Part shown: positions 26,587-41,372 of the stretch, piece by piece
Numbering within the stretch: position 1 is the stretch's first letter
Layout of the letters: the number at the start of each line of letters is the position of its first letter
Assembly: GCF_013459645.1 (NCBI RefSeq)
Contig: NZ_CP054861.1
Span: 5,134,001 to 5,198,000, forward strand
Direction of reading: 5' to 3'
DNA: 64,000 nt
Origin: Martelella sp. NC20
GTDB taxonomy: Bacteria > Pseudomonadota > Alphaproteobacteria > Rhizobiales > Rhizobiaceae
Position numbers and translations under genes: made by a program
The notes under the pieces: model-generated
The model's input: the letters and a program-made list of their open reading frames with translations, nothing else
The model's database searches: none
Told to the model about the DNA's origin: nothing

Positions 26587-26601
26587 TCCTACGATATGGA
26601 A
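26587..26601. promoter_or_regulatory. IclR-type box, site A
   Basis: TCCTACGATATGGAA, a pseudo-palindrome related to sites at 26773, 27691, 27797 and 41358. It lies 94 bases upstream of dctP and overlaps the left arm of the 10-base inverted repeat. Confidence 0.5.
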
Positions 26602-26772
26602 CAATATCAAAGCATGCAGGATATGTTTTTGTTGCCATCGGAAAGGCATGAACCGACGATTTACCTAAATTAATCATTATTTTTCAGATATATAAGATTA
26701 CGTCACGTCCGTTCCTTTCGACAGACATTCCTCGAAAATGGACGCATCGACGACAAGCGCAATTGCATTTCA

Positions 26773-26787
26773 TCCTACAATATGGGA
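26773..26787. promoter_or_regulatory. IclR-type box, site B
   Basis: TCCTACAATATGGGA, differing from site A at two positions, lies 89 bases before the IclR start. It is well placed for autoregulation. Confidence 0.55.
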
Positions 26788-26875
26788 GATACGGTACATC
26801 ACCGCGCCCTTTCCACTGCGGCGCGCGCGATGCTATAGCCGACAGAGGAAACAGCCACCCAACGGAAGAAAACGG

Positions 26876-27637
26876 ATGAGCGAACCGAAACAGGAAGGCA
26901 CGCAGGCAATCCGCCGCGCCGCCGCGGTATTGCGCCGGGTTGCGGCCGACGCCGACAATGGCACAAACCTGCGCGAGGTCTGCGAGGCGACCGACCTCTC
27001 CCGCTCGACCGCCCATCGGATCATGAAATGCCTGATGGAAGAGCAGTTGCTCGATTACAACGAGAACACGCGGCGCTACACGGTGGGCAATCTCGTCTTC
27101 GAACTGGGCCTCGCCACCACATCGCGACAGACCGAGGTGATGAAATGGCGCGCCCTCATCGATGAACTCGCCCGCCGCTGCGGCGCCACGTCCTATCTGC
27201 TGGCGCGCAGCGGCTATGAAAGCGTCTGCCTCTACAAGGCGGAAGGCTCCTCGGTGCTGCGCGCCATCCCCGTCGAGGTCGGCCAGCGCCGACCGCTCGG
27301 CGTCGGGGCGGCGGCAACCGCGCTCCTCGCCGACACGAGCGAGGCCGAGACGGAGCGCATCCTCGCCGCCATCGCCCCGCATCTTGCCGCGCATTCGCGG
27401 CTCGATACCGCACAGATCCGCCACAACATCGCCGAGGGTCGCAAGACCGGCTTCACCGAAAGCCGCGATTTCGTTGCCGACAATGTCTATGGCCTCGGCA
27501 TGGTACTGCCGACCGGGCAGCACCCGGCCATGCTGGCGATGAGCATCGCCACCCACACCTCGCTCGCCACGCCGCAAAACATTGCAGCCTGGAAGCGCCA
27601 TTTCGATGATCTGCGACAGCAGGCAAGCGCGGGGTAA
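26876..27637 (+). CDS. IclR-family transcriptional regulator
   Basis: A 253-residue regulator. The N-terminal winged helix covers TQAIRRAAAVLRRVAADADN, LREVCEATDLSRSTAHRIMK and CLMEEQLLDYNENTRRYTVG; the C-terminal GAF-like effector domain includes SYLLARSGYESVCLYKAEGS and the end segment GLGMVLPTGQHPAMLAMSIA. I chose the ATG at 26876 because residues before it resemble nothing in the family. Divergent from dctPQM, it probably responds to the transported acid or a breakdown product. Matching 15-bp sites before this gene, before the etf remnant and before the 41384 operon suggest a wider regulon. Confidence 0.9.
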   Translation: MSEPKQEGTQAIRRAAAVLRRVAADADNGTNLREVCEATDLSRSTAHRIMKCLMEEQLLDYNENTRRYTVGNLVFELGLATTSRQTEVMKWRALIDELARRCGATSYLLARSGYESVCLYKAEGSSVLRAIPVEVGQRRPLGVGAAATALLADTSEAETERILAAIAPHLAAHSRLDTAQIRHNIAEGRKTGFTESRDFVADNVYGLGMVLPTGQHPAMLAMSIATHTSLATPQNIAAWKRHFDDLRQQASAG

Positions 27638-27690
27638 CCCCGAACAAGCCGCCGCTCACCAAACTCCCCCAGAATGCGAGCCAATCGTAA

Positions 27691-27705
27691 TCTCATATTG
27701 TGGGA
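27691..27705. promoter_or_regulatory. IclR-type box, site C
   Basis: TCTCATATTGTGGGA, on the opposite strand TCCCACAATATGAGA, lies 151 bases before the etf remnant. It matches site B at 12 of 15 positions when read on the minus strand. Confidence 0.5.
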
Positions 27706-27796
27706 CGCAATAGTCTCATTTCTTTCGTGATTTGTGCTGACTTCATTGACATTCGGCTTTCTCCTTGTGATCAATCGTCAATGGGAAAAAAGTTCA

Positions 27797-27811
27797 TCCC
27801 GTATTTTGGGA
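27797..27811. promoter_or_regulatory. IclR-type box, site D
   Basis: TCCCGTATTTTGGGA has perfect TCCC/GGGA outer arms and lies 45 bases before the ATG of the etf remnant, where a repressor would block the promoter. Confidence 0.5.
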
Positions 27812-27855
27812 TACTCGCGGTCAGCTTTCCCCGCCCGGCCATATGGAGGATAAAC

Positions 27856-28111
27856 ATGAAAATTCTGGTCCCGGTGAAACGGGTTTGCGCCGAACGACTG
27901 GCAGGTCGGCCAGACCGGCAAGGTGGTCGCCCCCGATCTCTACATGGCCTGCGGCATATCCGGCGCGATCCAGCATCTGGCCGGCATGAAGGACAGCAAG
28001 GTGATCGTCGCGATCAACAAGGACGAGGAAGCCCCGATCTTCCAGGTCGCCGATTACGGCATTGTCGGCGACCTGTTCGTGGTTCTGCCGGAGCATGAAA
28101 AGGCGCTTTGA
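27856..28111 (+). pseudogene. etfB-etfA deletion remnant
   Basis: The ATG at 27856, with ribosome site GGAGG, begins [10 protein letters not shown], the invariant N-terminus of the electron-transfer flavoprotein beta subunit. Near 27887 the sequence switches, out of frame, to the C-terminal part of the alpha subunit ([20 protein letters not shown], then [20 protein letters not shown], ending EHEKAL at a TGA). One deletion of well over a kilobase would remove most of etfB and the first two-thirds of etfA. The start codon now reads a meaningless 80-residue frame. The lost ETF would have accepted electrons from the nearby acyl-CoA dehydrogenases, so a working copy must exist elsewhere. Confidence 0.85.
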
Positions 28112-28139
28112 ACAGCAACCATCGGGAGGGAGGCCCACC

Positions 28140-29765
28140 ATGGCAAAACGCATGAAAGTCCAGGAACGTCTCGCCGGGGCGCTGGCGAAGGCTGGCCTCG
28201 GTCCGCTCTTCGGCGTCACCGGCGACGCCAATGTCTATCTGATCGACGCCTTCGTCAGCGGCCATGGCGGCCGCTTCGTCGCGGCAGCCAACGAAGCGGG
28301 CGCGGCGCTGATGGCGCTGGGTCATGCCTCGGTTTCGGGCCGGGTCGGCCTTGCGACCGTGACCCACGGGCCCGCGCTCACCAACACCCTGACGGCGCTG
28401 GCCGAAGGCGTGAAAGCCGGAACGCCGATGGTGCTTCTCGCCGGCGATACCCGCCACGGCGAACGCGAGAACCTGCAGAACATCGCCCAGCGCGACCTCA
28501 TCCTCGCGACCGGCGCCGGGTTTGAGACGATCCACCGGCCCGAGACCGCCGTCGACGATCTTGCCCGCGCGATCCGCCGCGCCGGCGCCGAGCGCCGCCC
28601 GGTCGCTTTCAACATGCCCGTCGATCTTCTCTCAAGCGAGGTCGAGGACGACGCCTGCGAGCTTCGGATCGCCTTGTCCCGCCCCGAAATCACGCCCTCC
28701 GGCGATGATCTCGACAATGCCATCGGCATGATCGCCGCCGCCCGCCGGCCGATCATACTCGCCGGGCGCGATGCCATCGACGATGCCGCCCGCGACGCCC
28801 TGATCCGGCTTGCCGACCGCATCGAGGCGCCGCTTGCAACGACGCTCCGGGCCAAGGGGCTTTTCTCCGGCCATCCCTACCATCTCGGCATCATGGGCAC
28901 GCTCAGCACGCCACAGGCGACCGAGGCGCTGATTTCGAGCGATTGCATCATCGCCTTCGGCGCCGGCCTCAATTTCCACACAACTGCCGAGGGCAGTCTC
29001 GTCGAAGGCAAGCGGGTGATCCAGATCGCGCGCCAGGAAGCCGGGATCGGTCGCGGTCACACCCCGAGCGTCGGCCTCGTCGGCGGCATCGCCGAAACCG
29101 CCGGGCGCATGCTTTACTGGCTGGACGAGGCCGAAATCGCGGGCTCCGGTTTCCGCACCGCCCTTCCCGCCGGCTCGCTCGCGCAACAGCCCGGCCCGAC
29201 GCGTATTTCATCCCCCGGCGACCTCGACTATGTCGACGCCCTGACCCGGCTTGACGCCCTGTTGCCTGAAAACCGGATGCTCGTTACCGATGCAGGCCGC
29301 CACATGGTCAAGGCCATGCAATATCTCGATGTCGAGCATCCCCGGCTCTATGTCCAGACGGCTTCCTTCGGCTCGATCGGCCTCGGCATGGCCGAGGCGA
29401 TCGGCGCGGCGGAAGCGGAGCCGGATCGGCCGGTTGTGCTGACCGTCGGCGATGGCGGTTTCATGCTCGGCGGGCTCACCGAATTCAACACCGCCGTGCG
29501 CCACGGCACCGACCTGATCGTCCTTCTCATGAACGACAATTGCTACGGCGCCGAATATGCGATCCTGCGCGACAAGCAGATGGATACCGCGCTCAGCCGG
29601 TTCGACTGGCCCGCCTTCGCGCCGATTGCCGAGGCGCTTGGCGGGCGCGGCGTCACCATCGAAGGCCCCGACGATTTCGGCCGCGCCGCCGAGGCGATCG
29701 CCAGCCGCGACCGGCCGCTGCTGATCGAGCTCCGCCTCGATCCGGCGAAGATGCCGTTCTGGTGA
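28140..29765 (+). CDS. ThDP-dependent enzyme of the acetolactate synthase-like family
   Basis: A 541-residue ThDP enzyme with the three-domain fold. The N-terminal pyrimidine-binding domain has FGVTGDANVYLIDAFV and the cofactor-activating Glu in FVAAANEAGAALMALGHAS; the middle domain starts about residue 195; the C-terminal diphosphate-binding domain carries the GDG-N30 motif, from GDGGFMLGG to MNDNCYG. Start chosen at 28140 after GGGAGGGAGG. Members decarboxylate or ligate 2-oxo acids, or cleave 2-hydroxyacyl-CoA; I cannot decide between these by reading. It follows the etf remnant by 28 bases and shares its promoter region with two IclR-type boxes, so it may belong to the TRAP substrate pathway. 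Confidence 0.85.
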   Translation: MAKRMKVQERLAGALAKAGLGPLFGVTGDANVYLIDAFVSGHGGRFVAAANEAGAALMALGHASVSGRVGLATVTHGPALTNTLTALAEGVKAGTPMVLLAGDTRHGERENLQNIAQRDLILATGAGFETIHRPETAVDDLARAIRRAGAERRPVAFNMPVDLLSSEVEDDACELRIALSRPEITPSGDDLDNAIGMIAAARRPIILAGRDAIDDAARDALIRLADRIEAPLATTLRAKGLFSGHPYHLGIMGTLSTPQATEALISSDCIIAFGAGLNFHTTAEGSLVEGKRVIQIARQEAGIGRGHTPSVGLVGGIAETAGRMLYWLDEAEIAGSGFRTALPAGSLAQQPGPTRISSPGDLDYVDALTRLDALLPENRMLVTDAGRHMVKAMQYLDVEHPRLYVQTASFGSIGLGMAEAIGAAEAEPDRPVVLTVGDGGFMLGGLTEFNTAVRHGTDLIVLLMNDNCYGAEYAILRDKQMDTALSRFDWPAFAPIAEALGGRGVTIEGPDDFGRAAEAIASRDRPLLIELRLDPAKMPFW

Positions 29766-29771
29766 CGGGCC

Positions 29772-30701
29772 TCAGCGCCCGCAGAATTCCCCAACCGCCG
29801 CCTCGTATTCGGCAACCAGCCGGTCGCAGAGTTCGGCAGCGGGGAGAATATCCGAGATCCCGCCGACGCCCTGACCGGCAGACCAGACCGCCTTCCACGC
29901 TCTTGACTCATTCTTCATGTCGAGCTCGGCATGGGCGGGAAGATGATCGGGGTCGAGCCCCGCCGCAACGATGCTGGGCTTGAGGAAATTGGCATTCACC
30001 CCGGAAATATTGGGGGTATAGACGATATCGGCGGCGGCGGCGGAAACGATCATGTCCTTGTAGGCCGCAGGCACCATCGCCTCGCGCGTGGCGATGAAGC
30101 GGGTGCCGAGATAGGCCATGTCGGCACCCATCATCCGCGCCGCGGCGATATCCCGGCCCGTGCCGAGCGCGCCGGCAAGGATCACCGTGCCCTTGAAGAA
30201 GGAACGGATCTCGCCCAGAAGCGCGAACGGGCTCAGCGCGCCGGCATGGCCGCCCGCTCCGGCGCTAACGGCGATCAGCCCGTCGACGCCCGCCTCCGCC
30301 GCCTTTTCCGCGTGGCGCCGGCTGATGACATCGTGGAACACCAGCCCGCCATAGGAATGCACCGCATCGACGACATCCTTCACCGCGCCGAGCGAAGTGA
30401 TCACCAGCGGCACCTTGTGGGCGACGACCGCGGCGAGATCGGCCTCAAGGCGCGGATTGGTGCGATGGACGATCAGGTTGACGCCATAGGGCGCCGCGCC
30501 GGAAACGCCCTCAAGACGGGCCTCGATCTCGCCGAGCCAGTCGACAAAACCTTGCGTCGAGCGCTGGTTCAGCGCCGGAAACGTGCCCACAAGCCCCGAC
30601 CGGCAGACCTCGACCACGAGATCCGGACCCGATGTCAGAAACATCGGCGCGGAAATGACCGGCAGGCGCAGCCTGCCCTGAAATGCGATCGGCAGTGCCA
30701 T
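29772..30701 (-). CDS. Nitronate monooxygenase-like FMN protein
   Basis: A 309-residue TIM-barrel flavoprotein of the nitronate monooxygenase/2-nitropropane dioxygenase family: LRLPVISAPMFLTSGPDLV at the N-terminus, GLVGTFPALNQRS, VFHDVISRRHAEKAAEAGVD, the phosphate-binding GAGGHAGALSPFALLGEI with the conserved GGHxG, and GADMAYLGTRFIATREA. In acyl-CoA catabolic loci such proteins are common and often have unknown substrates, including enoyl-CoA-type reduction or isomerisation, so true nitronate activity should not be assumed. It ends 6 bases from the convergent ThDP gene and is 3 bases downstream of tetR, with which it is probably co-transcribed. Confidence 0.85.
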   Translation of the reverse strand: MALPIAFQGRLRLPVISAPMFLTSGPDLVVEVCRSGLVGTFPALNQRSTQGFVDWLGEIEARLEGVSGAAPYGVNLIVHRTNPRLEADLAAVVAHKVPLVITSLGAVKDVVDAVHSYGGLVFHDVISRRHAEKAAEAGVDGLIAVSAGAGGHAGALSPFALLGEIRSFFKGTVILAGALGTGRDIAAARMMGADMAYLGTRFIATREAMVPAAYKDMIVSAAAADIVYTPNISGVNANFLKPSIVAAGLDPDHLPAHAELDMKNESRAWKAVWSAGQGVGGISDILPAAELCDRLVAEYEAAVGEFCGR

Positions 30702-30704
30702 GCC

Positions 30705-31349
30705 CTATTCCTTTTCATGAGGCCGGCTGCGCGGGGCAAGACCCACGACCAGCTGGCCGACAACGGCTTTCGCCACGATATCCGCCGGCACCGGCCCTTT
30801 AGGGTCGTACCATTTGGCAATGCCGTTCAACGCGCCGGTCAGCGTGAAAGTCACGAGCCGCGGATCGCCGGGCGCGATCGAGCCGTCGGCCATACCCTCG
30901 GCCACCACGCCACGGATAAACTGATCGATCTCGCGCTTCAGCGCGCGGAATTTCCTGCCGCTTTCCGCCGATAGTTCGTGATCGGAGGTGCGCGAGACGC
31001 ATATGCCGAAATCCTGCGTCATCGTCAGAGCATAGCCCTCCATCAGCGCGACCAGCCGCGAGAGCCCCGACCCCTTTTCGCCGGCAACGGCCTCGGTCGC
31101 GCGCCGGATAGCGCCCAAACCTCGTTCGACGCACTCGAACAGGATGTCATCCTTGGTCGGAAAGTAGTGATAGATCGTCGGCTTGGTGACGTTGAGCCGG
31201 GCCGCGACCTCATCCAGCGAGGTGGCATGGAAGCCGACCTCGTTGAACAGGGCGACCGCCGTTTCAAGCACGGCGTCGCGCTTCTCGCTGCGTCCGCGCT
31301 TTCGTTCCTCCGCCCCGGGCCAGGGCGATTTTGCCGTCGCCTGCGCCAT
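30705..31349 (-). CDS. TetR-family transcriptional regulator
   Basis: A 214-residue regulator. The helix-turn-helix is at about residues 25-65: KRDAVLETAVALFNEVGFHA, TSLDEVAARLNVTKPTIYHY and FPTKDDILFECVERGL. The ligand domain ends with the KWYDPKG segment common in fatty-acyl-CoA-responsive TetR proteins (compare KstR and FadR-type). The ATG at 31349 follows GGAGGTGG; a longer form to 31496 would read through the operator. Divergent from the thiolase operon that starts at 31482, it probably represses that operon and itself through the site at 31421-31444, released by an acyl-CoA. Confidence 0.9.
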   Translation of the reverse strand: MAQATAKSPWPGAEERKRGRSEKRDAVLETAVALFNEVGFHATSLDEVAARLNVTKPTIYHYFPTKDDILFECVERGLGAIRRATEAVAGEKGSGLSRLVALMEGYALTMTQDFGICVSRTSDHELSAESGRKFRALKREIDQFIRGVVAEGMADGSIAPGDPRLVTFTLTGALNGIAKWYDPKGPVPADIVAKAVVGQLVVGLAPRSRPHEKE

Positions 31350-31420
31350 CAGCCACCTCCTGCAGCACATCATTGAGAGCCGGCGCGATATGAGACCGAT
31401 TCCCGCTTGATTTTTCTCTT

Positions 31421-31444
31421 GAGTAGAAACTATACTCATGAGTA
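31421..31444. promoter_or_regulatory. Candidate operator for the adjacent TetR regulator
   Basis: Three alternating half-sites occur here: GAGTA (31421-31425), TACTC (31433-31437), GAGTA (31440-31444). The last two make the perfect 12-base palindrome TACTCATGAGTA. It lies 38 bases before the thiolase start and 72 bases before tetR, an ideal place to control both. Confidence 0.6.
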
Positions 31445-31481
31445 AAGAACTGTCAATTCCGGAGACGAAGGAGGCGCATCC

Positions 31482-32648
31482 ATGGAGACTGATCACGTCG
31501 GCATCGCTATACTTTCAGCCGCCCGCACGCCGATCGGCAGCTTTCAGGGTGCGCTGTCGGGCGAAAGCGCAACCGCGCTTGGCGCCGCCGCCATCCGCGA
31601 GGCCACCCGCCGCGCGGGCATCGCGACGGAGGAGGTCGAGGAGGCCTATATGGGCTGCGTGCTGCCGGCCGGCCTCGGCCAGGCGCCGGCGCGACAGGCG
31701 GCGCTCGGCGCCGGCCTGCCGCTTTCCGTGCCGTCGACCACCGTCAGCAAGGTCTGCGGTTCGGGGATGAAGGCGATCATGCTGGCGGCCGACGGCATCA
31801 AGGCCGGATCGACGACGATCGCCGTCGCCGGCGGCATGGAGAGCATGAGCAATGCCCCCTATCTGCTCGACAAGGCGCGCGGCGGCTACCGCGCCGGCCA
31901 CGGCCGCCTCTACGACCACATGTTCCTCGACGGACTTGAGGACGCCTATGATCGCGGCCGCGCGATGGGCGGTTTTGCCGAGGAAACCGCCACCCATTAC
32001 GGCTTTACCCGGGAAGAGCAGGATGCCTATGCGCTCGCCTCGCTTGAGCGCGCCCGCGCGGCCCTCGCCGAAGGCCGGTTCGTAAGCGAGATCGTCGCCA
32101 TCGGCGCGGTCGCGGAGGACGAGCAGCCCGCGCGCGCCAGGCCGGAGAAGATCCCGCTCCTGAAACCCGCCTTCCGCGAAAACGGCACGGTGACGGCGGC
32201 GAATTCCTCCTCGATTTCCGATGGCGCGGCGGCGCTCGTGCTTGCAAGCCGGACGGCTGCCGAAACCCGCGGACTTTCGCCGCTGGCGCTGATCCGCGGC
32301 GCCGCAAGCCATGCCCAGGCGCCGGCCTGGTTCACCACCGCACCGGTCTTCGCCATCCGCAAGCTCCTCGACAAGGTGGGCTGGACGAAGGCCGATGTCG
32401 ATCTCTTCGAGATCAACGAGGCGTTCGCGGTGGTCGCCATGGCGGCAATGCGCGAACTCGATCTGCCCCACGACAGGGTCAACATCCATGGCGGGGCCTG
32501 CGCGCTCGGCCATCCGATCGGCTGTTCCGGCGCACGGATCGTGGTGACGCTGATTTCGGCTCTGAAACGTCACGGCCTGAAACGCGGCGTCGCGGCGCTG
32601 TGTATCGGCGGCGGCGAAGCGACCGCGCTCGCCATCGAAATCGCCTGA
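31482..32648 (+). CDS. Acetyl-CoA acetyltransferase-type thiolase
   Basis: A 388-residue thiolase. The N-terminal AILSAARTPIGSFQGALSG is typical of AtoB/PhaA enzymes. The nucleophilic Cys is in VSKVCGSGMKAIMLAADGIK (about residue 91), the catalytic His lies in GGACALGHPIGCSGARI, and the second Cys is in AALCIGGGEATALAIE. It is the first of five genes running 31482-38044, opposite tetR. It would cleave or form 3-oxoacyl-CoA; its pairing with a second, FadA-like thiolase suggests two chain lengths or a branched intermediate. Confidence 0.9.
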   Translation: METDHVGIAILSAARTPIGSFQGALSGESATALGAAAIREATRRAGIATEEVEEAYMGCVLPAGLGQAPARQAALGAGLPLSVPSTTVSKVCGSGMKAIMLAADGIKAGSTTIAVAGGMESMSNAPYLLDKARGGYRAGHGRLYDHMFLDGLEDAYDRGRAMGGFAEETATHYGFTREEQDAYALASLERARAALAEGRFVSEIVAIGAVAEDEQPARARPEKIPLLKPAFRENGTVTAANSSSISDGAAALVLASRTAAETRGLSPLALIRGAASHAQAPAWFTTAPVFAIRKLLDKVGWTKADVDLFEINEAFAVVAMAAMRELDLPHDRVNIHGGACALGHPIGCSGARIVVTLISALKRHGLKRGVAALCIGGGEATALAIEIA

Positions 32649-32666
32649 ACGGCGCAAGGAGACACA

Positions 32667-33806
32667 ATGCTGCTTTCGGCTGAACATCTGATGGTCCAGG
32701 ACATGGCGCGGCGCTTCGCCGAGGAGCGGCTGAAGCCCTTCTCCGCCGAATGGGACCGCACGAAGACCTTCCCGCGCGACCGCATCGCGGAGATGGGGCA
32801 ACTCGGCTTCATGGGCATGCTGGTGCCCGAGGAAATGGGCGGATCGCTGACCGATCTCATCGCCTATGCCGTGGCGCTGGAGGAGATCGCCGCCGGAAAT
32901 GGCGCGCTTTCGACGGTCATGAGCGTCCACAACTCCGTCGGCTGCGGCCCGATCCTGAAATTCGGCAGCGATGCCCAGAAAGAGCGTTTCCTGAAGCCGA
33001 TGGCGCGGGGCGAATTGCTCGGCGCCTTCTGCCTGACCGAGCCCCATGCCGGCTCGGATGCCGCGGCGCTGAAGTGCCGTGCCCGGCGGGTGGGCGAGCG
33101 CTACGTCCTTTCCGGCACCAAGCAGTTCATCACGTCGGGCAAGAATGCCGATATCGCGATCGTGTTCGCCGTCACTGATCCGGACGCCGGAAAACGCGGA
33201 ATTTCCGCCTTCATCGTCCCGACCGACACGCCCGGCTACCGCGTCGCACGGATCGAGGAGAAGCTCGGCCAGAACCTTTCCGACACCGCCCAGATCGCCT
33301 TTGACGATCTCGAACTCGATGCCTCTCTGCGCCTGGGCGACGAGGGCGAGGGCTATCGCATCGCCCTTGCCAATCTCGAAGGCGGGCGCATCGGCATCGC
33401 CGCGCAATCGGTCGGCATGGCGCGGGCAGCGCTTGAGGCAGCACTTGCCTATGCCGGCGAGCGGACAAGCTTCGGCAAGCCGCTTCACGCCCATGGCGTG
33501 ATCGCCGCAAGGCTTGCCGACATGGCAACAGAGATCGAAGCGGCGCGGCAACTCGTGCACCATGCGGCCGCACTGCGCGGGGCGGGCGAGCCGGCGCTGA
33601 AAGCCGCCTCCATGGCCAAGCTCTTCGCCTCGGAAATGGCCGAGCGGGTCGCCTCGGAGGCGCTGCAGATCCACGGCGGCTATGGCTATGTCACCGATTT
33701 TCCGGTCGAGCGGATCTATCGCGACGTTCGCGTCTGCCGGATCTACGAGGGCACCAGCGACATCCAGCGCATGGTCATCGCCCGCGAGATCATCAGCGGG
33801 CGATGA
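32667..33806 (+). CDS. Acyl-CoA dehydrogenase (short-chain type)
   Basis: A 379-residue classical homotetrameric-type acyl-CoA dehydrogenase. It has MVQDMARRFAEERLKPFSAE at the N-terminus, AFCLTEPHAGSDAAALKCRA for flavin binding, FITSGKNADIAIVFAVTDPD, and near the C-terminus IHGGYGYVTDFPVERIYRDV with the catalytic base in CRIYEGTSDIQRMVIAREI. Butyryl-, isovaleryl- and 2-methylacyl-CoA enzymes share this layout; the subtype is undecided. It follows the thiolase by 18 bases with an AAGGAG ribosome site. Electrons would go to an ETF encoded elsewhere. Confidence 0.9.
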   Translation: MLLSAEHLMVQDMARRFAEERLKPFSAEWDRTKTFPRDRIAEMGQLGFMGMLVPEEMGGSLTDLIAYAVALEEIAAGNGALSTVMSVHNSVGCGPILKFGSDAQKERFLKPMARGELLGAFCLTEPHAGSDAAALKCRARRVGERYVLSGTKQFITSGKNADIAIVFAVTDPDAGKRGISAFIVPTDTPGYRVARIEEKLGQNLSDTAQIAFDDLELDASLRLGDEGEGYRIALANLEGGRIGIAAQSVGMARAALEAALAYAGERTSFGKPLHAHGVIAARLADMATEIEAARQLVHHAAALRGAGEPALKAASMAKLFASEMAERVASEALQIHGGYGYVTDFPVERIYRDVRVCRIYEGTSDIQRMVIAREIISGR

Positions 33807-33830
33807 CCCGGAAGAAAAAGGAAGAGTGCC

Positions 33831-34619
33831 ATGACCGGAGAGCCTCCCGTTCTCACCGTCTTCGATCCCTCGACCGGCATCGCCCGCATCACCTTCAACC
33901 GGCCGGAAAAGCTGAATGCCATCGACCAGAAGACGGCGGAGGCCTTCCGCGACGCCGCCGAATGGGCAGCCACCCGCGCGGGGCTGCGGCTCATTCTCCT
34001 GGATGCGACCGGCCGCGCATTCGTTGCCGGCGGCGACATAGAAACCTTTGCCGATCCCCGATCGGCGCCAGCCGCGATCGACCGGCTGCTCGCGGCGATG
34101 AATGCCGGGCTTCTGACGCTGAGAAAAGCGCCGGCGCCGCTTGTCACCGCGGTTCAGGGCATGGCCGCCGGCGCGGGCTTTGCGCTCGCGCTTTCCGGGG
34201 ATCTGGTTTTCGCGGCGCGGTCCGCCCGCTTTGCCGTTGCCTATACCCGCCTCGGCGGTACGCCCGATTGCGGCCTCACCCATGCGCTTTCACGCCGCAT
34301 CGGCCCGGCCCGGACGGTGGAAATGCTGATCAACGATGCCACCCTCGATGCGCCGGCCGCTGCCGCCATGGGCCTCGTCACCGAAGTGCTCGACGATGAC
34401 GGCTTTGCCGCGGCGGTCGCAGCGCGCGCCAGCCGCCTTGCTGGCGGCCCGACGCGGGCTTTTGTCGCCGCCCGCGACCTGCTCGACCGGGAACGCTCCT
34501 TCGAAGAGCAGATCACGCGTGAGCGGCAGGCCTTTATCGCGGCCGCCGGCAGCGCCGATTTCGCGGAAGGCGTTGCAGCCTTTCGCGCACGCCGCGCCCC
34601 GCGCTTCGAGGGACAATGA
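33831..34619 (+). CDS. Enoyl-CoA hydratase/isomerase family protein
   Basis: A 262-residue crotonase-fold protein: RITFNRPEKLNAIDQKTAEA, the oxyanion-hole segment GRAFVAGGDIETFAD, and VQGMAAGAGFALALSGDLVF for the second oxyanion loop. At the position of the two catalytic glutamates the sequence reads FAVAYTRLGGTPDCGLTHAL, so the usual Glu residues are not evident (Thr and Asp occur). It could therefore be an isomerase or another crotonase activity rather than a hydratase. Third gene of the 31482 operon. Confidence 0.85.
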   Translation: MTGEPPVLTVFDPSTGIARITFNRPEKLNAIDQKTAEAFRDAAEWAATRAGLRLILLDATGRAFVAGGDIETFADPRSAPAAIDRLLAAMNAGLLTLRKAPAPLVTAVQGMAAGAGFALALSGDLVFAARSARFAVAYTRLGGTPDCGLTHALSRRIGPARTVEMLINDATLDAPAAAAMGLVTEVLDDDGFAAAVAARASRLAGGPTRAFVAARDLLDRERSFEEQITRERQAFIAAAGSADFAEGVAAFRARRAPRFEGQ

Positions 34620-34652
34620 GATTTCAGGATGGATTCAATGGAGGTAAAACCG

Positions 34653-35786
34653 ATGACCGAGGCTTATATCGCGGGCTATGTACGCAGCCCGTTCACATTC
34701 GCGCGCAAGGGCGCGCTGGCCGGCGTCCGGCCGGAAGCGCTCGGCGCTCATGTGATCCGCGCGCTTCTGGAGCGCACCGGCGCACCCGGCGACGAAATCG
34801 AGGACGTGATCTGGGGCTGCGCCTTTCCCGAGGGCGAGCAGGGGCTGAATATCGGCCGCGTTACCGGCCTTGAGGCCGGGCTGCCGGTGACCACCTGCGG
34901 CATGACCGTCAACCGCTGGTGCGGCTCCTCGATCCAGGCGGTGCAGATCGCCTCCGGCATGCTGATGATGGGCGCGGGCGATGCCTTCATTGCCGGCGGC
35001 ACGGAATGCATGTCGCGCGTGCCGATGATGGGCTTCAATCTCCTGCCGCCGCCAGGCTGGAGCAAGGATGCGGTCGATGACTTTGTCAGCGTCGGGCTGA
35101 CGGCCGAGCGCGTTGCCCGCGAATGCCATGTGAGCCGCGCGGAACAGGACCTCTTTGGCTATCAGAGCCACCAGAAGGCGCTTGCCGCAAGACGCGCCGG
35201 ACGTCTCGAAAGCGAGATCGTGCCCTTTGCCACGGCCGACGGTCTCGTTTCGGACGACGGCTGCGTGCGCGACACCCCGCTTGAAAAGATGGCCGAACTG
35301 AAGCCGGTGTTTGTCGCAGGCGGCTCGGTGACGGCGGCCACATCCTCGCCGACGACCGACGGCTCGGCTGCCGTTCTGGTCTGCGGCGAGGCCTTCCTGA
35401 AACGCCATGGACTTTCCCCGCTCGCCCGGGTCGCGGGCTTTGCCGTCTCCGGTTGCGAACCGGGGGTGATGGGGCTCGGGCCGATCGGCGCGTCACAAAA
35501 GGCGATGGCGCGCGCCGGACGGACGATCGCCGATATCGGCGTCATCGAGATGAACGAGGCCTTCGCCTCCCAGGCCGAGGCCTCGCGCCGGGCGCTCGAC
35601 ATCAACCCGGAAAAGCTCAACCGCGATGGCGGGGCGATCGCGCTCGGCCATCCGCTCGGCGCGACCGGGGCAAGGCTCGTCGGCAAATGCGCCACGCTCC
35701 TGAAGCGTGACGGCGAACGCTACGGCCTGGCCACCCAGTGCATCGGCGGCGGTATGGGCATCGCCATGGTGCTGGAGGCAGCATGA
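34653..35786 (+). CDS. Acetyl-CoA C-acyltransferase (FadA-like thiolase)
   Basis: A 377-residue thiolase. The start at 34653 (MTEAYIAGYVRSPFTFARKG) is preceded by GGAGGT at 7 bases, so the upstream in-frame ATG at 34629 is less likely. Catalytic Cys is in TVNRWCGSSIQAVQIASGML, the His in NRDGGAIALGHPLGATGARL, and the second Cys in ATQCIGGGMGIAMV. This resembles the beta subunit partner of fused hydratase/dehydrogenase enzymes, and indeed its stop overlaps the start of the bifunctional gene, so it is likely the final thiolytic step of this chain. Confidence 0.9.
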   Translation: MTEAYIAGYVRSPFTFARKGALAGVRPEALGAHVIRALLERTGAPGDEIEDVIWGCAFPEGEQGLNIGRVTGLEAGLPVTTCGMTVNRWCGSSIQAVQIASGMLMMGAGDAFIAGGTECMSRVPMMGFNLLPPPGWSKDAVDDFVSVGLTAERVARECHVSRAEQDLFGYQSHQKALAARRAGRLESEIVPFATADGLVSDDGCVRDTPLEKMAELKPVFVAGGSVTAATSSPTTDGSAAVLVCGEAFLKRHGLSPLARVAGFAVSGCEPGVMGLGPIGASQKAMARAGRTIADIGVIEMNEAFASQAEASRRALDINPEKLNRDGGAIALGHPLGATGARLVGKCATLLKRDGERYGLATQCIGGGMGIAMVLEAA

Positions 35787-38044
35787 TGAACACGACCCGG
35801 AAAGCAGCCCTCGGCGCGCTTGAAAGCGGTGTCCGGCGCGCGGCGGTGATCGGCGCCGGCACGATGGGGAGCGGCATCGCCGCGCAATTCGCCAATGCCG
35901 GCATCCCTGTCGACCTCCTCGACATCGCCGGTCCCGATGGCGGCCCAGGCCCGGCCCAAGCCGGGATCGCCCGCCAGACAAAGGCCGGCGGCTTCATGGG
36001 CGAGGCCGCCGTGACACGCGTCGCCCCCGGCACGATCGAGCATGATCTCGACCGCGTCGCCGGGGCTGACTGGATCATCGAGGCGATTGTCGAGAACCTC
36101 GACGTCAAGCGCGATCTCAACGCCCGCATCGACCGCGCCCGCAAGCCCGGGAGCATCGTCTCCTCCAACACCTCGACCATTCCCCATGCCGCACTGACGG
36201 CGGGTATGCCCGATGGGTTCCGGCGCGATTTCGTCATCAGCCATTTCTTCAATCCGCCGCGCAGCATGCCGCTGATGGAACTGGTGATCTGCGAGGAGAC
36301 CGCGCCCGAAATCGCCGCGACGGTGCGCCGCGCCGCCCGCGACGGGCTCGGCAAGACGGTGATCGACTGCCGCGATGCGCCCGGTTTCATCGCCAATCGC
36401 ATCGGCTGCTACTGGCTCGCGGTGGCGCTTCTGGAGGCCGAGCGCATGGGCCTGACGGTCGAGGAGGCCGATGCCGTTCACGCCGCACTCGGCATGCCGC
36501 GCACCGGCGTCTTCGGGCTGATGGACCTTATCGGCATCGACCTCATTCCAGCCGTCTGGGGCAGCCTGATGGCCGCCCTTCCCGCCGATGACGACCTGAA
36601 GCATTTCGATCTTCCGGAATGGGAACGCGCCCGCGAGATGATCGCAGCAGGCCATCTCGGCCGCAAGAGCGGCGCCGGCTTCTACCGCAAGGACAAGGAT
36701 GGCGCCCGTTTCGCCCTCGATCTCGTTTCGGGCGAGTACCGGCCGCAGCAGACGCCGGAACCGCCGCCGGGCGCTGGCAATATTGCGGCGCTGATTGAAA
36801 GCGAGAGCCGGCTCGGACGTTACGCGGCGGCTGTGCTCGCCCGCGTCGTCGCCTATGCCGGCGCACATGGCCGCGCCATCGCCCATGATCCGGCCGATGT
36901 CGATACCGCCATGGTGCTCGGCTATTCCTGGCGCGAGGGACCCTTCGCGCTTGCAAGCCGGGCCGGCCTGCCGCTGATCCGGAGGAACATCGCGGATCTC
37001 GGACTTGCCGTTCCCGCACTTCTCGAGGACGACCGACTGCCCGAGGCGAAAACGGCGGCCCCCGCGTTTCTTTCGGGTGCGAACCTGCTCGCCGGCAATG
37101 ACGATGCCTCGCTGCACATCATGAAGGACGGGCTAGCCGTCTTCGAGATCCACCGCAAGATGAACGCGATTTCGCCCGGTGTGCAGGACATGCTCGAAGC
37201 CGCGATCGGCAAGGCCGGCAGCGACTACCGGGCGCTGGTGCTGGCCAGCCGCTCGCCGCGCGCCTTTTCCGCCGGCGCCGATCTCGGCTATTTCGTCACG
37301 GCGATCGAGGCGGGCGATTTTGCCGGCATTTCCAGCTTCATCCGTCGCGGCCAGCAGCTCTTTCTGGCGCTGAAATATGCGCCCGCGCCGGTGGTGGCCG
37401 CCGTGCAGGGCGTGGCGCTTGGCGGCGGCTGCGAACTTGCGCTCCACGCCGATGCGATCGTCGCCCATGCCGAAGCGCGCTTCGGCCTGCCCGAGGCCAA
37501 TCTCGGCCTCCTGCCCGGCTGGGGCGGCTGCACACAGGCGCTGCTGCGCGCTCAGGAGCGGGCACGACCGGCGGGTCCGCTTGCCAGCGCCGCCCACGCC
37601 TTCAATCTCGTGCTCGGCGCCTTCGTTTCCGGTTCCGCGCCGGAGGCAGCCGAAAAACTGCTGCTCCGGCCGGATGATGCCATCGTGATGCATCGCGACG
37701 CCGTGTTCGATGCCGCCCGGCAGAAGGCGCTTGAGCTCGCCGAGGCCTACGCGCCGCCGCCGCAGGCGCTCCTCACCGTCACCGGCCATTCCGGCTTTCT
37801 CGGGCTGACGACGGCAATGCGCGGCAATCTCGCCGCCGGCCGCAGCACGGGAACCGATCTGCGCATCGCCGAGGCAATCGCCGATGTGATGACCGGCGGA
37901 CCGGAGGCCGACCAATCGCGCGCGATCAGCGAAGACGAGATGATGCAGCGCGAATGCGAAGCGCTGACGATGCTGATCCAAACACCGGAAACGGCCGCGC
38001 GCATGGCCCATTTCCTGAAAACCGGCAAGCCGCTCAGGAACTGA
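35783..38044 (+). CDS. Bifunctional 3-hydroxyacyl-CoA dehydrogenase/enoyl-CoA hydratase
   Basis: A 753-residue enzyme in which the dehydrogenase comes first. Residues 15-60 are the NAD-binding Rossmann region ([20 protein letters not shown]), then FEDLDVKRDLN-like ENLDVKRDLNARID, VISHFFNPPRSMPLMELVIC, FIANRIGCYWLAVALLEAER and FGLMDLIGIDLIPAVW. The hydratase part begins about residue 450, with FSAGADLGYF and VQGVALGGGCELALHADAIV, then FGLPEANLGLLPGWGGC. This order is the reverse of FadB/FadJ and of the enzyme at 18605-20575. It starts within the thiolase stop (ATGA) and closes the operon. Confidence 0.9.
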   Translation: MMNTTRKAALGALESGVRRAAVIGAGTMGSGIAAQFANAGIPVDLLDIAGPDGGPGPAQAGIARQTKAGGFMGEAAVTRVAPGTIEHDLDRVAGADWIIEAIVENLDVKRDLNARIDRARKPGSIVSSNTSTIPHAALTAGMPDGFRRDFVISHFFNPPRSMPLMELVICEETAPEIAATVRRAARDGLGKTVIDCRDAPGFIANRIGCYWLAVALLEAERMGLTVEEADAVHAALGMPRTGVFGLMDLIGIDLIPAVWGSLMAALPADDDLKHFDLPEWERAREMIAAGHLGRKSGAGFYRKDKDGARFALDLVSGEYRPQQTPEPPPGAGNIAALIESESRLGRYAAAVLARVVAYAGAHGRAIAHDPADVDTAMVLGYSWREGPFALASRAGLPLIRRNIADLGLAVPALLEDDRLPEAKTAAPAFLSGANLLAGNDDASLHIMKDGLAVFEIHRKMNAISPGVQDMLEAAIGKAGSDYRALVLASRSPRAFSAGADLGYFVTAIEAGDFAGISSFIRRGQQLFLALKYAPAPVVAAVQGVALGGGCELALHADAIVAHAEARFGLPEANLGLLPGWGGCTQALLRAQERARPAGPLASAAHAFNLVLGAFVSGSAPEAAEKLLLRPDDAIVMHRDAVFDAARQKALELAEAYAPPPQALLTVTGHSGFLGLTTAMRGNLAAGRSTGTDLRIAEAIADVMTGGPEADQSRAISEDEMMQRECEALTMLIQTPETAARMAHFLKTGKPLRN

Positions 38045-38045: not shown

Positions 38046-38076
38046 GAGGGCGGGCCACAAAAAACGCCCGCCCCTC
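38046..38076. terminator. GC-rich hairpin between convergent operons
   Basis: GAGGGCGGGC and GCCCGCCCCTC form a stem (one bulge) around an A-rich loop, two bases after the bifunctional gene stop. No T-run follows, so it may be a transcript-end stabiliser or a weak bidirectional stop. The remaining ~110 bases to the SDR gene hold nothing else recognisable. Confidence 0.45.
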
Positions 38077-38185
38077 ACGCTCGGCCATGCACGGGCCGGT
38101 TCCAAGTCCCGACTGCGGCCCGGTGCAGACCTGGGCAAGCCCACCCACCCACAATCTCCGCCCTTGAGGGGGAGATTGGAAGTCC

Positions 38186-39007
38186 TCACTCCGCCTCCTC
38201 CCCCCGTCTGCCCGAATGGCTGAAACCGGGATCGACGAAGGTGCGCTCGGCGGTGAGCGCCGCCTCGCTCAGGAACCGGGTCGAAGACCAGCCACCATCG
38301 ACGGCGAGCACCTGGCCGTTGATGAAGCGCGAGCGTCTCGAGGACAGAAACAGGATCGCCTCGGCGACATCCTCCGCCCGGCCCATGCTGGGAGCGGGCG
38401 TCATGTCGATGTTCATCCGGCGGAAGCCCTCATCCTCCAGGCGGTGCAGGGTCATCGGCGTCGGGATCACCCCCGGCGCCACGGCATTGCTGCGGATGCC
38501 GGAGGCGCCGTACTGGCAGGCGAGGTGGCGGGTCAGCGCGTCGATGCCGCCCTTCGCCGCCGAATAGGCGCCGCCGCGAAGCCCGCCGACCAGCGCATAG
38601 GTGGAACTGACATTGACGATCGTGGCCTCGTCGCCGAAATGCCTCAAGGCCTCGCGGCAAAGCCGGAAGGGCGCGCGCAGCATCAGGCCCAGAAAGGCGT
38701 CGAGTGTCTCGTCATCGGTCTCGTGCACAGGTTTCGGGCTGCCGATGCCGGCATTGTTGACGAGATGATCGAGACGGCCGAAGCGCTCGATCGCGCAGGC
38801 GACGGCCCGGCGCGGTCCGTCGTCTTCGGTCACGTCGACGGCAAGTGTTGCAAGCTCCGCGCCGAGGACGGCGCTATCGGCCTCCATCCGGCGAAGTTTT
38901 TCGGGATCGCGCGCCACCGCGACGACGGCGATGCCGGCGCCGAGAAAGGCCCGCGCGGTGGCAAGGCCGATGCCGCTCGAAGCGCCGGTGATCAATGCAA
39001 CGGTCAT
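38186..39007 (-). CDS. Short-chain dehydrogenase/reductase
   Basis: A 273-residue classical SDR. Cofactor motif TGASSGIGLATARAFL, NNAG at HLVNNAGIGSP, catalytic Ser in NVSSTYALVGGLRGGAYSAA, and the Y-x3-K in YSAAKGGIDALTRHLA. The ATG at 39007 follows GGGAGGTAAC and overlaps the upstream dehydrogenase stop by four bases; a longer frame exists but lacks resemblance. As third gene in the minus-strand unit 41096-38186 it probably oxidises a 3-hydroxyacyl-CoA or a ring hydroxyl formed after the dehydrogenase step. Substrate is unknown. Confidence 0.88.
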   Translation of the reverse strand: MTVALITGASSGIGLATARAFLGAGIAVVAVARDPEKLRRMEADSAVLGAELATLAVDVTEDDGPRRAVACAIERFGRLDHLVNNAGIGSPKPVHETDDETLDAFLGLMLRAPFRLCREALRHFGDEATIVNVSSTYALVGGLRGGAYSAAKGGIDALTRHLACQYGASGIRSNAVAPGVIPTPMTLHRLEDEGFRRMNIDMTPAPSMGRAEDVAEAILFLSSRRSRFINGQVLAVDGGWSSTRFLSEAALTAERTFVDPGFSHSGRRGEEAE

Positions 39008-39978
39008 GGTGTTACCTCCCGGCTTGGCGCGCGCGGCGCCATCGGCGCGGGCTCGGCCAGCATGTCGCGCGGCGAAAGCAGAAGCCGCAACAGATGCGCC
39101 TGCTTGAGAAAACGATGCACGGACGCCTCCGCCGAAAAGCCGATGCCGCCGTGAAGCTGGATCGCGGTCCGGGCATTGGCAAGGGCAGCGTCCGGGGCGA
39201 TCAGGCAAAGCGCCGCGAGTTGAAAGCCCGCATCCGCGCGCCCGTCGCGGAGGGAAATTGCCGCCATGTCGAGCGTCGCGGACAGGGTTTCAGCGGCGAT
39301 CGCCATATTGGCCGCGTGATGCTTGACCGCCTGGAACGCGCCGATCGGCTTGCCGAACTGGCGGTGCGTGCCGGCATAGGCGACCGCAAGATCGCGCGTC
39401 GCCTCGGCAATGCCCAGAAGTTCGGCCGAAACCAGCAAATCGGCGAAGGCGCGGATGTCGGCATCCGCGGTTTCGGCAACCGTGTCCGCCGCCCCGGCTT
39501 CAACCGTGCTCAGGGCCACCGTCCCGCCAAGCCCCGTTTCAGTGCTTCCCGCGAGACCGGCAACCGCGACGAGACGGAGTCGGTTGCCATCGAAGACCAC
39601 CGCATGTCTGGCACCGGCGGGTTCGACCAGACGCAGGGCGCCGCCGGCGGCGACCGCGACGGCCGCCATCTGCGCGCCGGACGCAAATTCCGTGGCCAGT
39701 TCGTCAAGCCCCGCCCGCGCGGCAATCCGGACGGCGAGCGTGGTCGCAAGCGCATGGGTCGAGACGAGATGCCGACCGAAGAGAACATGAAGCAGCGCAT
39801 CCTCGACGAGAGTAAACCCCGCGCCGCCGAATTCCTCGTCGAGCGACAGGGCGAAGGCGCCGAAGCCGGCAATTTCCGCCAGTGGGTCCGGTGCATCGGC
39901 CGCAAGCAGCGCGGCGGCGGCATCGAGGATCTGTCGCTGATCGGCGTTGAGATTGAGATCGCAGGCCATATCGCTCAC
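39004..39978 (-). CDS. Acyl-CoA dehydrogenase small subunit-like protein
   Basis: A 324-residue acyl-CoA dehydrogenase-fold protein with a GTG start that overlaps the stop of the large-subunit gene (GTGA). The C-terminal domain retains AYAGTHRQFGKPIGAFQAVK, HHAANMAIAAETLSATLDMA and IQLHGGIGFSAEASVHRFLK, but the chain is short and the usual catalytic Glu loop is missing. The central domain is degenerate. Tight coupling to the 373-residue neighbour suggests a heteromeric enzyme like ChsE-type FadE pairs from actinobacterial steroid catabolism. Confidence 0.82.
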   Translation of the reverse strand: MSDMACDLNLNADQRQILDAAAALLAADAPDPLAEIAGFGAFALSLDEEFGGAGFTLVEDALLHVLFGRHLVSTHALATTLAVRIAARAGLDELATEFASGAQMAAVAVAAGGALRLVEPAGARHAVVFDGNRLRLVAVAGLAGSTETGLGGTVALSTVEAGAADTVAETADADIRAFADLLVSAELLGIAEATRDLAVAYAGTHRQFGKPIGAFQAVKHHAANMAIAAETLSATLDMAAISLRDGRADAGFQLAALCLIAPDAALANARTAIQLHGGIGFSAEASVHRFLKQAHLLRLLLSPRDMLAEPAPMAPRAPSREVTP

Positions 39979-41096
39979 TCCCGGGGCAGGCCGAGAATGC
40001 GCTCGGCAATGATGTTGCGCTGGATTTCGGCCGTTCCGCCGGCAATCGTCTCGCTGTAGCTTTCGAGATAGTCATGGCTCCAGCGGCTGTGGCCAAGTCC
40101 GTCAGGGCCCAGCACGTCCATCGCCGCGCGGTGGATCGCCTGCGACAGTTCGCCGAAACGAAGCCGCACCAGCGAGCCGTCGAAGGGACCAGACGGTTCG
40201 CGCAGCAGCGAACGCCAGGTCATGGCCCGAAGCGCCGCCGCTTCGGCCCGAAGCCTGCCGAGGCGCTCGGCGATCGCCGAGCCGGGTGAAGGCCGCGCCA
40301 TCGCGATCAGGTCCTCGATCTTCACCGAAAGTTCGAATTGCAGGCCCATGGCGGCAGTCCGGCGCTCGAAGCCGAGCGTGGTCATCGCCACGCGCCAGCC
40401 GTCATGCAGCCCGCCGACGACGTTTTCGAGCGGAATGCGGACATCATCATAGAAGACCTCGGCGAAATGGGTCGCCCCCGCCATGTTCTCGATCGGCCGC
40501 ACGGTGATGCCCGACGTCTTCATGTCGCAGATCACCCAGGAAAGTCCCTTGTGCCGTTTCGAACCCGGCTCGGTGCGCACCAGCAATTCCTGATAGTCGG
40601 CGATATCGGCGAAACTCGACCAGATCTTGGCGCCGTTGACCACGAGCTCGTCGCCGTCGATGACAGCGCTGGTGGAAAGGGAGGCGAGATCGGAGCCGGC
40701 ATTGGGCTCAGAAAAGCCCTGACACCAGATCGACTGCCCGGCGAGGATCCGGGGCAGATGGAAGGCCTTCTGCGCATCCGAGCCGCGGGCGATCAGCGTC
40801 GGTCCCGCATGGTTGAGCGCAACGAAGGTGCAATCAAGCGCGGAGGGCGCGCGGGCGCGGACATATTCCTCGTACCAGATCAGCAGCCGCTCGGGCGCAA
40901 GCCCCCGACCGCCATAGTCTTCCGGCCAGGCGATGCCGGCAAAGCCGCCGGCATGGCAGCGCGCCATCCAGGCGGCGGCAAAGTCGCGCGCCGCCATTCC
41001 GTCAGCGGGGGCGTTTTCCTGCGGCACGTTTTCGGCAAGCCATTGCCGCGCCTGCTGCCGGAAGGCCTCATCCTCAAGCGAGAATTCAAGCTCCAT
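39975..41096 (-). CDS. Acyl-CoA dehydrogenase large subunit
   Basis: A 373-residue flavoprotein: MELEFSLEDEAFRQQARQWL, GIAWPEDYGGRGLAPERLLI, WCQGFSEPNAGSDLASLSTS, VVNGAKIWSSFADIADYQEL, and the C-terminal SETIAGGTAEIQRNIIAERI. This class, with the GGTxEIQ ending, occurs in paired dehydrogenases acting on bulky or branched acyl-CoAs. It is the first gene of the minus-strand unit with the small subunit and an SDR. Its promoter shares the 287-base gap with the oppositely oriented operon at 41384, which has its own IclR-type boxes. Confidence 0.86.
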   Translation of the reverse strand: MELEFSLEDEAFRQQARQWLAENVPQENAPADGMAARDFAAAWMARCHAGGFAGIAWPEDYGGRGLAPERLLIWYEEYVRARAPSALDCTFVALNHAGPTLIARGSDAQKAFHLPRILAGQSIWCQGFSEPNAGSDLASLSTSAVIDGDELVVNGAKIWSSFADIADYQELLVRTEPGSKRHKGLSWVICDMKTSGITVRPIENMAGATHFAEVFYDDVRIPLENVVGGLHDGWRVAMTTLGFERRTAAMGLQFELSVKIEDLIAMARPSPGSAIAERLGRLRAEAAALRAMTWRSLLREPSGPFDGSLVRLRFGELSQAIHRAAMDVLGPDGLGHSRWSHDYLESYSETIAGGTAEIQRNIIAERILGLPRE

Positions 41097-41203
41097 CGTC
41101 TCAATCCCTCCCCGAACGCCGCCATCGATCGCGGAATGACCCTACCTCCTGAGAGGAGCCATCCGCTCGGAAATCGCCAGCTGATCGACTTATTTCACTA
41201 TTG

Positions 41204-41218
41204 TTCCACTATGTGGCC
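41204..41218. promoter_or_regulatory. IclR-type box, site F (weaker)
   Basis: TTCCACTATGTGGCC contains a CCAC/GTGG dyad and aligns with site B at 10 of 15 positions. It is 108 bases before the minus-strand dehydrogenase gene. The reverse string CCACATAG recurs at 41272-41279. Confidence 0.4.
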
Positions 41219-41278
41219 ACTCTTTGCCGTAAATCATTTGCCCCAACTTTATGTCATAGACAAATGAAAATCCACATA

Positions 41279-41300
41279 GAACCCGAATTAAATTGGGTTC
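41279..41300. promoter_or_regulatory. 22-bp dyad in the divergent promoter region
   Basis: Arms GAACCC and GGGTTC flank an AT-rich centre; 9 of 11 positions per half are symmetric. It is centred in the 287-base gap between the two acyl-CoA dehydrogenase operons and could bind a regulator that acts on both. Confidence 0.4.
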
Positions 41301-41357
41301 TTGACAAGGTTGCCCGCGCAGTTCAGTTATTTCGATGAAAAGAGAATACGAAAATCA

Positions 41358-41372
41358 TCCCATAATGTGGAG
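41358..41372. promoter_or_regulatory. IclR-type box, site E
   Basis: TCCCATAATGTGGAG matches site B at 11 of 15 positions and lies 12 bases before the ATG of the 41384 gene, overlapping its ribosome-site region (GTGGAGG). A bound repressor here would block expression of the 41384-46646 genes. Confidence 0.5.

Follow-up and report, generated by a model that had tools for sequence, protein, structure and literature searches.

The region analyzed in this work is a 64,000-nt stretch of the Martelella sp. NC20 genome (contig NZ_CP054861.1, positions 5,134,001 to 5,198,000), hereafter called the window, in which an IclR-family regulator gene lies beside a tripartite ATP-independent periplasmic (TRAP) transporter operon (dctPQM) and a gene of a thiamine diphosphate (ThDP)-dependent enzyme, and two divergent acyl-coenzyme A (acyl-CoA) operons lie further on. 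Copies of a 15-bp motif, TCCCACAATATGGGA, recur in the gaps between these genes, and the comparison with related loci strongly supports a shared IclR regulon. The genes and predicted elements of the locus are as follows (window coordinates; bit scores of the sites come from a matrix built on relatives only).

23160..24638, minus strand: dctM, TRAP large permease (TIGR00786, 256 bits, cut-off 268)
24642..25280, minus strand: dctQ, lying between dctP and dctM, with same-place homologs in relatives (no NCBIfam match)
25270..26493, minus strand: dctP, TRAP solute-binding protein, assigned by homology (family recognized, below the NCBIfam cut-off)
26587..26601, plus strand: predicted IclR operator, gene-proximal for dctP, its centre 101 bp before the dctP start (20.4 bits)
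26773..26787, plus strand: predicted IclR operator, partner of 26587 at a distance of 186 bp, its centre 96 bp before iclR (22.7 bits, the best of the window)
26876..27637, plus strand: IclR-family regulator gene, with relatives in 26 loci (HTH_IclR 37.8 bits, cut-off 22; IclR_C 40.7 bits, cut-off 24)
27691..27705, minus strand: predicted IclR operator, upstream partner of 27797 (21.7 bits)
27746..27751, plus strand: TTGACA, a putative -35 element; the centre of operator 27797 follows 58 bp further on
27797..27811, minus strand: predicted IclR operator (19.2 bits), the gene-proximal one of its pair, with 106 bp between it and 27691
27856..28111, plus strand: remnant of electron transfer flavoprotein (ETF) genes, lying after the operator pair and ahead of the ThDP gene; the first etfB codons are followed, in another frame, by the C-terminal end of etfA
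28140..29765, plus strand: ThDP-dependent enzyme with three TPP_enzyme domains, its start refined to the ATG at 28140 and its sequence aligned with nine relatives
29772..38044: TetR-linked module with a nitronate monooxygenase (NMO)-like gene, a TetR gene, two thiolases, an acyl-CoA dehydrogenase, an enoyl-CoA hydratase, and a FadB-like gene
38186..41096, minus strand: divergent operon of an acyl-CoA dehydrogenase (39975-41096), a second subunit (39004-39978), and a short-chain dehydrogenase/reductase (SDR, from 38186)
41204..41218, plus strand: predicted operator of low score (9.4 bits), nearer to the divergent operon; 154 bp separate it from its partner
41301..41306, plus strand: TTGACA, which may serve the 41384 operon as its -35 element
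41358..41372, minus strand: predicted IclR operator directly before the 41384 start codon (17.3 bits)
41384..46646, plus strand: operon of two acyl-CoA dehydrogenase subunits, an enoyl-CoA hydratase, an AMP-binding acyl-CoA ligase (within 43973-45874), and an SDR

Five copies of the motif had been reported in the initial annotation of this DNA, and a search of the window with TCCCACAATATGGGA at up to 3 mismatches returned exactly these places (26587, 26773, 27691, 27797, and 41358) and no others, the expectation in shuffled sequence being 0.66 and five matches being reached in 1 of 100 shuffles. The sites had also been placed between genes, in promoter regions, which agrees with the gene coordinates: all five are intergenic and are flanked by the dctP start at 26493 (itself in agreement with the alignment of DctP relatives), the iclR gene, the etf remnant, and the starts at 41096 and 41384.

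The same motif emerges from relatives when the window sequence is excluded. The comparison set consisted of 26 loci from named genomes (designated here by L numbers), with relatives of the window IclR protein at 43-68% identity, and the training set of 34 gaps beside orthologs of window genes, contributed by 21 of these loci. No gap that qualified came from L046, L056, L057, L061, or L062 (of which L057 and L062 are the edge cases of the upstream-region count), and one gap, in L043, derives from a 79-residue ThDP match that is probably spurious. For the de novo search, all spaced pairs of four-letter words were counted and a palindromic position weight matrix (PWM) was then grown from the gaps. 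The commonest dyad, TCCC-N7-GGGA, occurred in 15 of the 34 gaps, and 60 dinucleotide shuffles reached at most 6. In leave-one-locus-out runs over the 21 loci, 36 of the 42 top-two matches fell within the gaps, with 1.14 expected; four of the six misses are sites in front of further genes that could well be targets (one before etfB in L041, one before a TctC gene in L048, and the two sites of a pair before an NMO-like gene in L050), and the remaining two are in L043, which lacks the cluster.

Upstream regions were scored for at least two sites of at least 8.5 bits within 330 bp, the best of them reaching at least 15 bits. Such sites were found upstream of the 41384 ortholog in all 20 readable regions and upstream of dctP in all 12 readable cases. 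The leave-one-out test matters here because most of the counted regions had also trained the PWM; in addition, five regions outside the training set (L095, L096, L097, L099, and a Terrarubrum plasmid, L103) hold pairs too, the partner in L096 being weak (9.3 bits). No site above 9.0 bits was found at seven homologous acyl-CoA dehydrogenase loci (six plasmid records, 49-59% identical, and L100, 51%). A protein search of these seven fetched stretches for IclR gave no match in six and a 30% relative in the Rhodococcus stretch, and the genome of L100 carries a window-type regulator on another contig.

Applied to the window, the relatives-only PWM placed 26773, 27691, 26587, 27797, 41358, and 41204 at ranks 1-6, with the first five between 22.7 and 17.3 bits. 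After the two closest relatives, L040 and L041, had been removed from the training, the same five sites remained on top (16.5 to 22.2 bits) and 41204 moved to the seventh place.

The remainder of the 6.11-Mb genome was surveyed by pattern searches (one of them through its first 100 listed places), in single stretches, and in a 400-kb sample (twenty 20-kb stretches), and low-score cores were only partly scored in full. At up to 3 mismatches, TCCCACAATATGGGA was found at 49 places, five of them in the window, as compared with 15 places for the reversed pattern used as a control; at up to 2 mismatches there were five places, including three in the window, and the degenerate palindrome TCYYAYWWTRTRRGA had only two exact places, both in the window. 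The best fully scored sites outside it reached 15.4 bits (C1:4245532, which precedes an uncharacterized 438-residue open reading frame (ORF), and C1:1459855), 14.5 bits (C1:779380 and C1:2872298), and 14.0 bits (C1:4512328). Among the ten best outside sites checked, none had a partner 90-210 bp away, the best candidate partner scoring 0.9 bits. These sites were considered as further regulon members and, being all single, were treated as background; a weaker member elsewhere in the genome may have been missed.

The linkage of the genes was compared in the same 26 loci. Of these, 21 have an ortholog of the 41384 gene (at least 60% identity) no more than 10 kb from iclR, and 13 have dctP at the same threshold and distance. 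The layout that recurs in relatives comprises an SDR gene with two acyl-CoA dehydrogenase genes and, divergently, two dehydrogenases, an enoyl-CoA hydratase, and the ligase; the cluster often continues with iclR, and dctPQM and the ThDP gene are close by. In L040 the whole cluster is contiguous, with a site pair in each of three gaps. Among 297 genomes of the family, the IclR gene and the 41384-type gene co-occur in the same nine, and in four sampled congeners the two genes were found in none; the cluster thus behaves as a mobile cassette. The control of dctPQM, the 41384 operon, and iclR itself by the IclR regulator, as proposed in the initial annotation, is therefore retained as a predicted regulon, because its motif was obtained de novo in relatives, recurs in orthologous gaps, and tracks the regulator.

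The sites are arranged mostly in pairs. Within 33 sequences, 48 pairs and 7 single sites were counted (a partner had to score at least 8.5 bits and lie 90-210 bp away, and two of the 48 pairs, in L059, share one site), whereas chance would supply a partner for about 1.1% of sites (about 1 in 90). In a wider grouping, the 38 spacings between the best two sites spanned 99-192 bp, and four loci had extra inner sites at 25-32 bp. Where a cluster gap seemed to hold a single site, a weaker second one was present at the distance expected of a pair. Periods of 11.1-11.5 bp in the spacings (p about 0.015-0.036; 5 of the 16 periods tried, range 10.0-11.5) were discounted as lying off the helical repeat; a period of 11.0 in the larger spacing set gave p 0.11, and the periods of 11.1-11.5 were covered by the smaller set only.

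A promoter element lies between the two sites of some of these pairs. A perfect TTGACA is present in 19 of 21 orthologous 41384 promoters, the window included (chance 0.3% in a 25-position window), and the centre of the gene-proximal operator follows it by 54-65 bp. The layout around the candidate element at 27746 is the same in L040 and L041, and the binding-protein gene of L042 has TTGACG at 49 bp from its operator. This layout fits a repressor acting just past the transcript start.

The ThDP gene appears to have acquired such a promoter in the course of rearrangement. In Oricola, etfB has an intact start, and the operator pair behind iclR stands before it; in the window, the same pair precedes the etf remnant and the ThDP gene, which bears out the phrase of the initial annotation that this promoter is "now driving" the ThDP enzyme; and in L040 the pair behind iclR stands directly before the ThDP gene. 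The second piece of the remnant matches the ETF_alpha domain (E 2.9e-15), and two more pairs of ETF matches were found elsewhere in the genome; since the pieces lie in two frames and these other pairs exist, the remnant was rejected as a working gene. The alignment of the ThDP protein (ten sequences) revealed an invariant E52 and GDGG, and a nearly invariant N465; a conserved Glu and a GDG...N motif are marks of the ThDP enzyme superfamily. Among the 25 NCBIfam families shown for this protein, no cut-off was reached. In L059, four operators (12.3-15.0 bits) rather than two are predicted in the interval from dctP to the ThDP gene (14253-14707).

As for the transporter, the dctM and dctP families were both seen, each below its NCBIfam cut-off, and position and homology place dctQ with them. 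The DctP protein is 69-76% identical to those of eight relatives, with R189 and R191 invariant; its AlphaFold model is poor (mean pLDDT 64.5, and below 50 across residues 182-257). In two loci without window-type TRAP genes within 10 kb of the regulator, the operator pair stands before another type of transporter gene: an ATP-binding cassette (ABC)-type periplasmic binding-protein gene in L042 and a TctC-type gene of a tripartite tricarboxylate transporter (TTT) in L048. On the Terrarubrum plasmid, the ligase gene itself sits between ABC binding-protein and permease genes. These transporter swaps give the strongest argument at present for the proposal that the acid taken up is the ligase substrate. 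The initial annotation had equated the two, and the comparison supports this indirectly, by way of other transporter classes that have their own operator pair or share the ligase operon.

Two side observations concern the transporters. The Terrarubrum flagellatum cluster (L103) of dehydrogenase, ligase, and iclR genes with an ABC transporter is located on a 435-kb repABC plasmid and has its operator pair at 17820/17969. In the window, the region downstream of dctM on the same strand (20622-22887) encodes a pimC-like gene (TIGR03204, 500 bits, below the cut-off) and a second dehydrogenase gene; no operator precedes these genes, which are possibly read through from dctPQM.

Within the acyl-CoA part of the locus, the order dehydrogenase-dehydrogenase-hydratase-ligase of the 41384 operon repeats in relatives, and the divergent operon (41096-38186), overlooked in the initial annotation, uses the common gap 41096-41384. 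The best matches of the 41384 protein in the PDB were two-subunit-type acyl-CoA dehydrogenases, Tcur3483 and 4x28. Steroid side-chain breakdown, which these matches suggest, is not claimed, the NCBIfam IpdE2 scores of the shorter subunits being far below the cut-off. In the window, the two halves of the cluster are parted by the TetR-linked beta-oxidation module (29772-38044), in whose TetR/thiolase region the PWM found no operator. The description of the locus as one pathway that is not contiguous holds for the window in this sense; L040, with its contiguous cluster, shows that it does not hold generally.

Some genes of this kind vary among the relatives. Parts of the module (NMO/FabK-like genes, thiolases, acyl-CoA dehydrogenase, and FadB-like genes) recur near the IclR cluster in L042, L052, L056, and L063. 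A long ORF before iclR in L044 (7218-9926), L056 (7652-9922), L061 (7612-9915), and L064 (7141-9909) resembles, by eye, an NDP-forming acyl-CoA synthetase, possibly another route of CoA activation. Beside iclR, L063 (10743-11933) and L065 (10734-11921) have a gene whose product, judged by eye, may be a CoA-transferase or racemase of the CaiB/BaiF type, and a CaiB/BaiF gene is annotated in the Variovorax cluster (L104) too.

Taken together, it is probable that the IclR protein encoded at 26876 regulates one catabolic cassette for one carboxylic acid, most likely as a repressor. The cassette (TRAP transporter, acyl-CoA ligase, two pairs of dehydrogenases, enoyl-CoA hydratase, and SDRs) would take up the acid, activate it with CoA, and beta-oxidize it. 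The regulator would bind the palindrome (G)TCCCAYWWWRTGGGA(C), two copies of which, about 100-190 bp apart, lie in each regulated promoter region. At the 41384 promoter and the one downstream of iclR, TTGACA lies between the copies and the second copy is centred 54-65 bp further on, at about +18 to +29 of the predicted transcript start, where bound IclR would prevent transcription from starting or stop it at an early stage of elongation. This effect could be reinforced if one tetramer held the two copies, and a pathway metabolite would relieve it.

Several results weigh against parts of this reading. By score, 41204 is background, with about 2.6 such matches expected per 64 kb; it is not significant on that ground because the 400-kb sample gave 16 matches above 9 bits (top 12.6). 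The weaker site named in the initial annotation is supported by its position: its partner lies at the right distance, and the matching gap of L040 has a 23.7-bit site 157 bp from its partner. Since apparent cluster-gap singles elsewhere had a weaker partner, 41204 is to be read as one. In 9 of 12 relatives, the 330 bp upstream of the ThDP gene contain no site, for which reason its control is lineage-specific and the gene is not a core member of the predicted regulon. The TTGACA-operator layout was not found at dctP promoters (best 5 of 6 positions, in 1 of 10) and was not clearly seen at iclR (best 5 of 6, in the window), NMO, or TctC promoters. In L043, which has an IclR relative and no cluster, no site exceeded 7.1 bits, and on the Variovorax plasmid (L104), where an IclR protein 47% identical to that of the window adjoins a transporter gene and dehydrogenase genes, the interval between regulator and transporter holds one weak site only (12.7 bits). 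Finally, the pair spacings show no 10.5-bp helical phase (R 0.13, p about 0.46), so that looping draws no backing from anything other than the pairing.

This last point bears on what the pairs do. Each may simply represent one operator per promoter of back-to-back genes, with no cooperation, an explanation to which we give slightly less than an even chance: many pairs do lie in divergent gaps, and helical phasing is missing, but pairs also occur in one-directional settings (the ThDP gene of L040, etfB of L041, the binding-protein genes of L042 and L048, and dctP of L044 and L054). More tentatively, the pairs could serve long-range repression, in which a tetramer of this IclR clade bridges palindromes 100-190 bp apart and silences the promoter that they enclose, and the pair with its promoter would be a module that moves from gene to gene, serving the uptake of a bulky cyclic acid by a pathway so far undescribed. 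The transfer of the etfBA promoter to the ThDP gene after a deletion, and the TRAP, ABC, and TTT transporters found under pairs according to lineage, would be cases of such movement.

The unity of substrate may also be questioned, as one regulon could respond to a common signal and serve two separate activities, the TRAP cargo differing from the acid of the ligase. In 13 of the 26 loci, some of them short contigs, no dctP (at least 60% identity) is found inside the 10 kb around iclR, and the ThDP gene is only sometimes under an operator, both of which would agree with this. We regard it as unlikely, because L042 and L048 put another transporter class under the pair, the Terrarubrum ABC transporter shares the ligase operon, and DctP is conserved across the eight relatives as expected of one specific ligand. 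It is considerably less probable that another regulator, e.g., a second IclR-family protein, binds the palindromes and the iclR gene is merely a neighbor. IclR-family sites do look alike; nevertheless, the motif is present at the cluster in all readable loci with a window-type IclR and absent from the seven dehydrogenase loci in whose fetched stretches no close IclR relative was found, and the regulator and the 41384-type gene accompany each other in nine of nine genomes out of 297. Chance clustering of a loose AT-centred palindrome, for which the 49 places in the genome might speak, is hardly credible, as a model built from other species picks the same places and the 400-kb sample never reaches 13 bits. 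The preferred reading thus remains a single cassette for one acid under the IclR regulator.

If so, an orphan TRAP transporter becomes tied to a defined set of CoA enzymes, and its substrate may be hunted with a binding-protein screen and a ligase assay. Moreover, three unrelated transporter classes fill the same slot of the predicted regulon, and since the classes are swapped while an operator pair marks each, the operator appears to tell more about which genes belong to the pathway than their order does.

Among known systems, the best NCBIfam match of the window IclR is BhcR (NF045644; 79.6 bits, below the equivalog cut-off of 350), the regulator linked to the beta-hydroxyaspartate cycle; unlike in that system, genes of the cycle were not noticed in the cluster, where no dedicated search for them was made. 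The 4x28 structure is ChsE4-ChsE5, and it and Tcur3483 are two-subunit enzymes of steroid side-chain breakdown. As in this type, the genes of the large and the shorter dehydrogenase subunits adjoin in the cluster; the setting differs, since no steroid-ring genes were noticed among the annotated genes, again with no dedicated search. In gal-type repression, two operators flank the promoter. The 41384 promoter and the one downstream of iclR are similar in having a promoter element between two operators, and dissimilar in that the pairs show no helical phasing and the loop is here only proposed.

Within the IclR family, the survey by Suvorova and Gelfand (2021, PMC8222616) gives GKTYCRYW3-4RYGRAMC as the motif of group 1. 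The window motif resembles it in being a palindrome of 17 bp centred on W3, with most half-site positions carrying the expected bases; it deviates once per half-site, where the sixth position from the centre is C rather than T (PMC8222616). The centre of the 41384 site, at -19, is near the commonest IclR site position of -22 given there, and DctPQM and LivKHMGH are named among the transporter subunits co-occurring in IclR regulogs (PMC8222616). The survey also stresses tandem sites 18-22 bp apart, the tandem subgroup making up 94 of 181 groups, whereas the pairs of the window and its relatives are 99-192 bp apart (PMC8222616); this wide and near-universal pairing is unlike the closely spaced tandem sites that many IclR proteins have. 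Among the titles and abstracts listed in searches of the literature, none dealt with this cluster, and, judged from the sequence comparisons, the window holds what is well supported as a new IclR regulon of an ordinary type, although its sites are arranged in an unusual way that can be put to the test.

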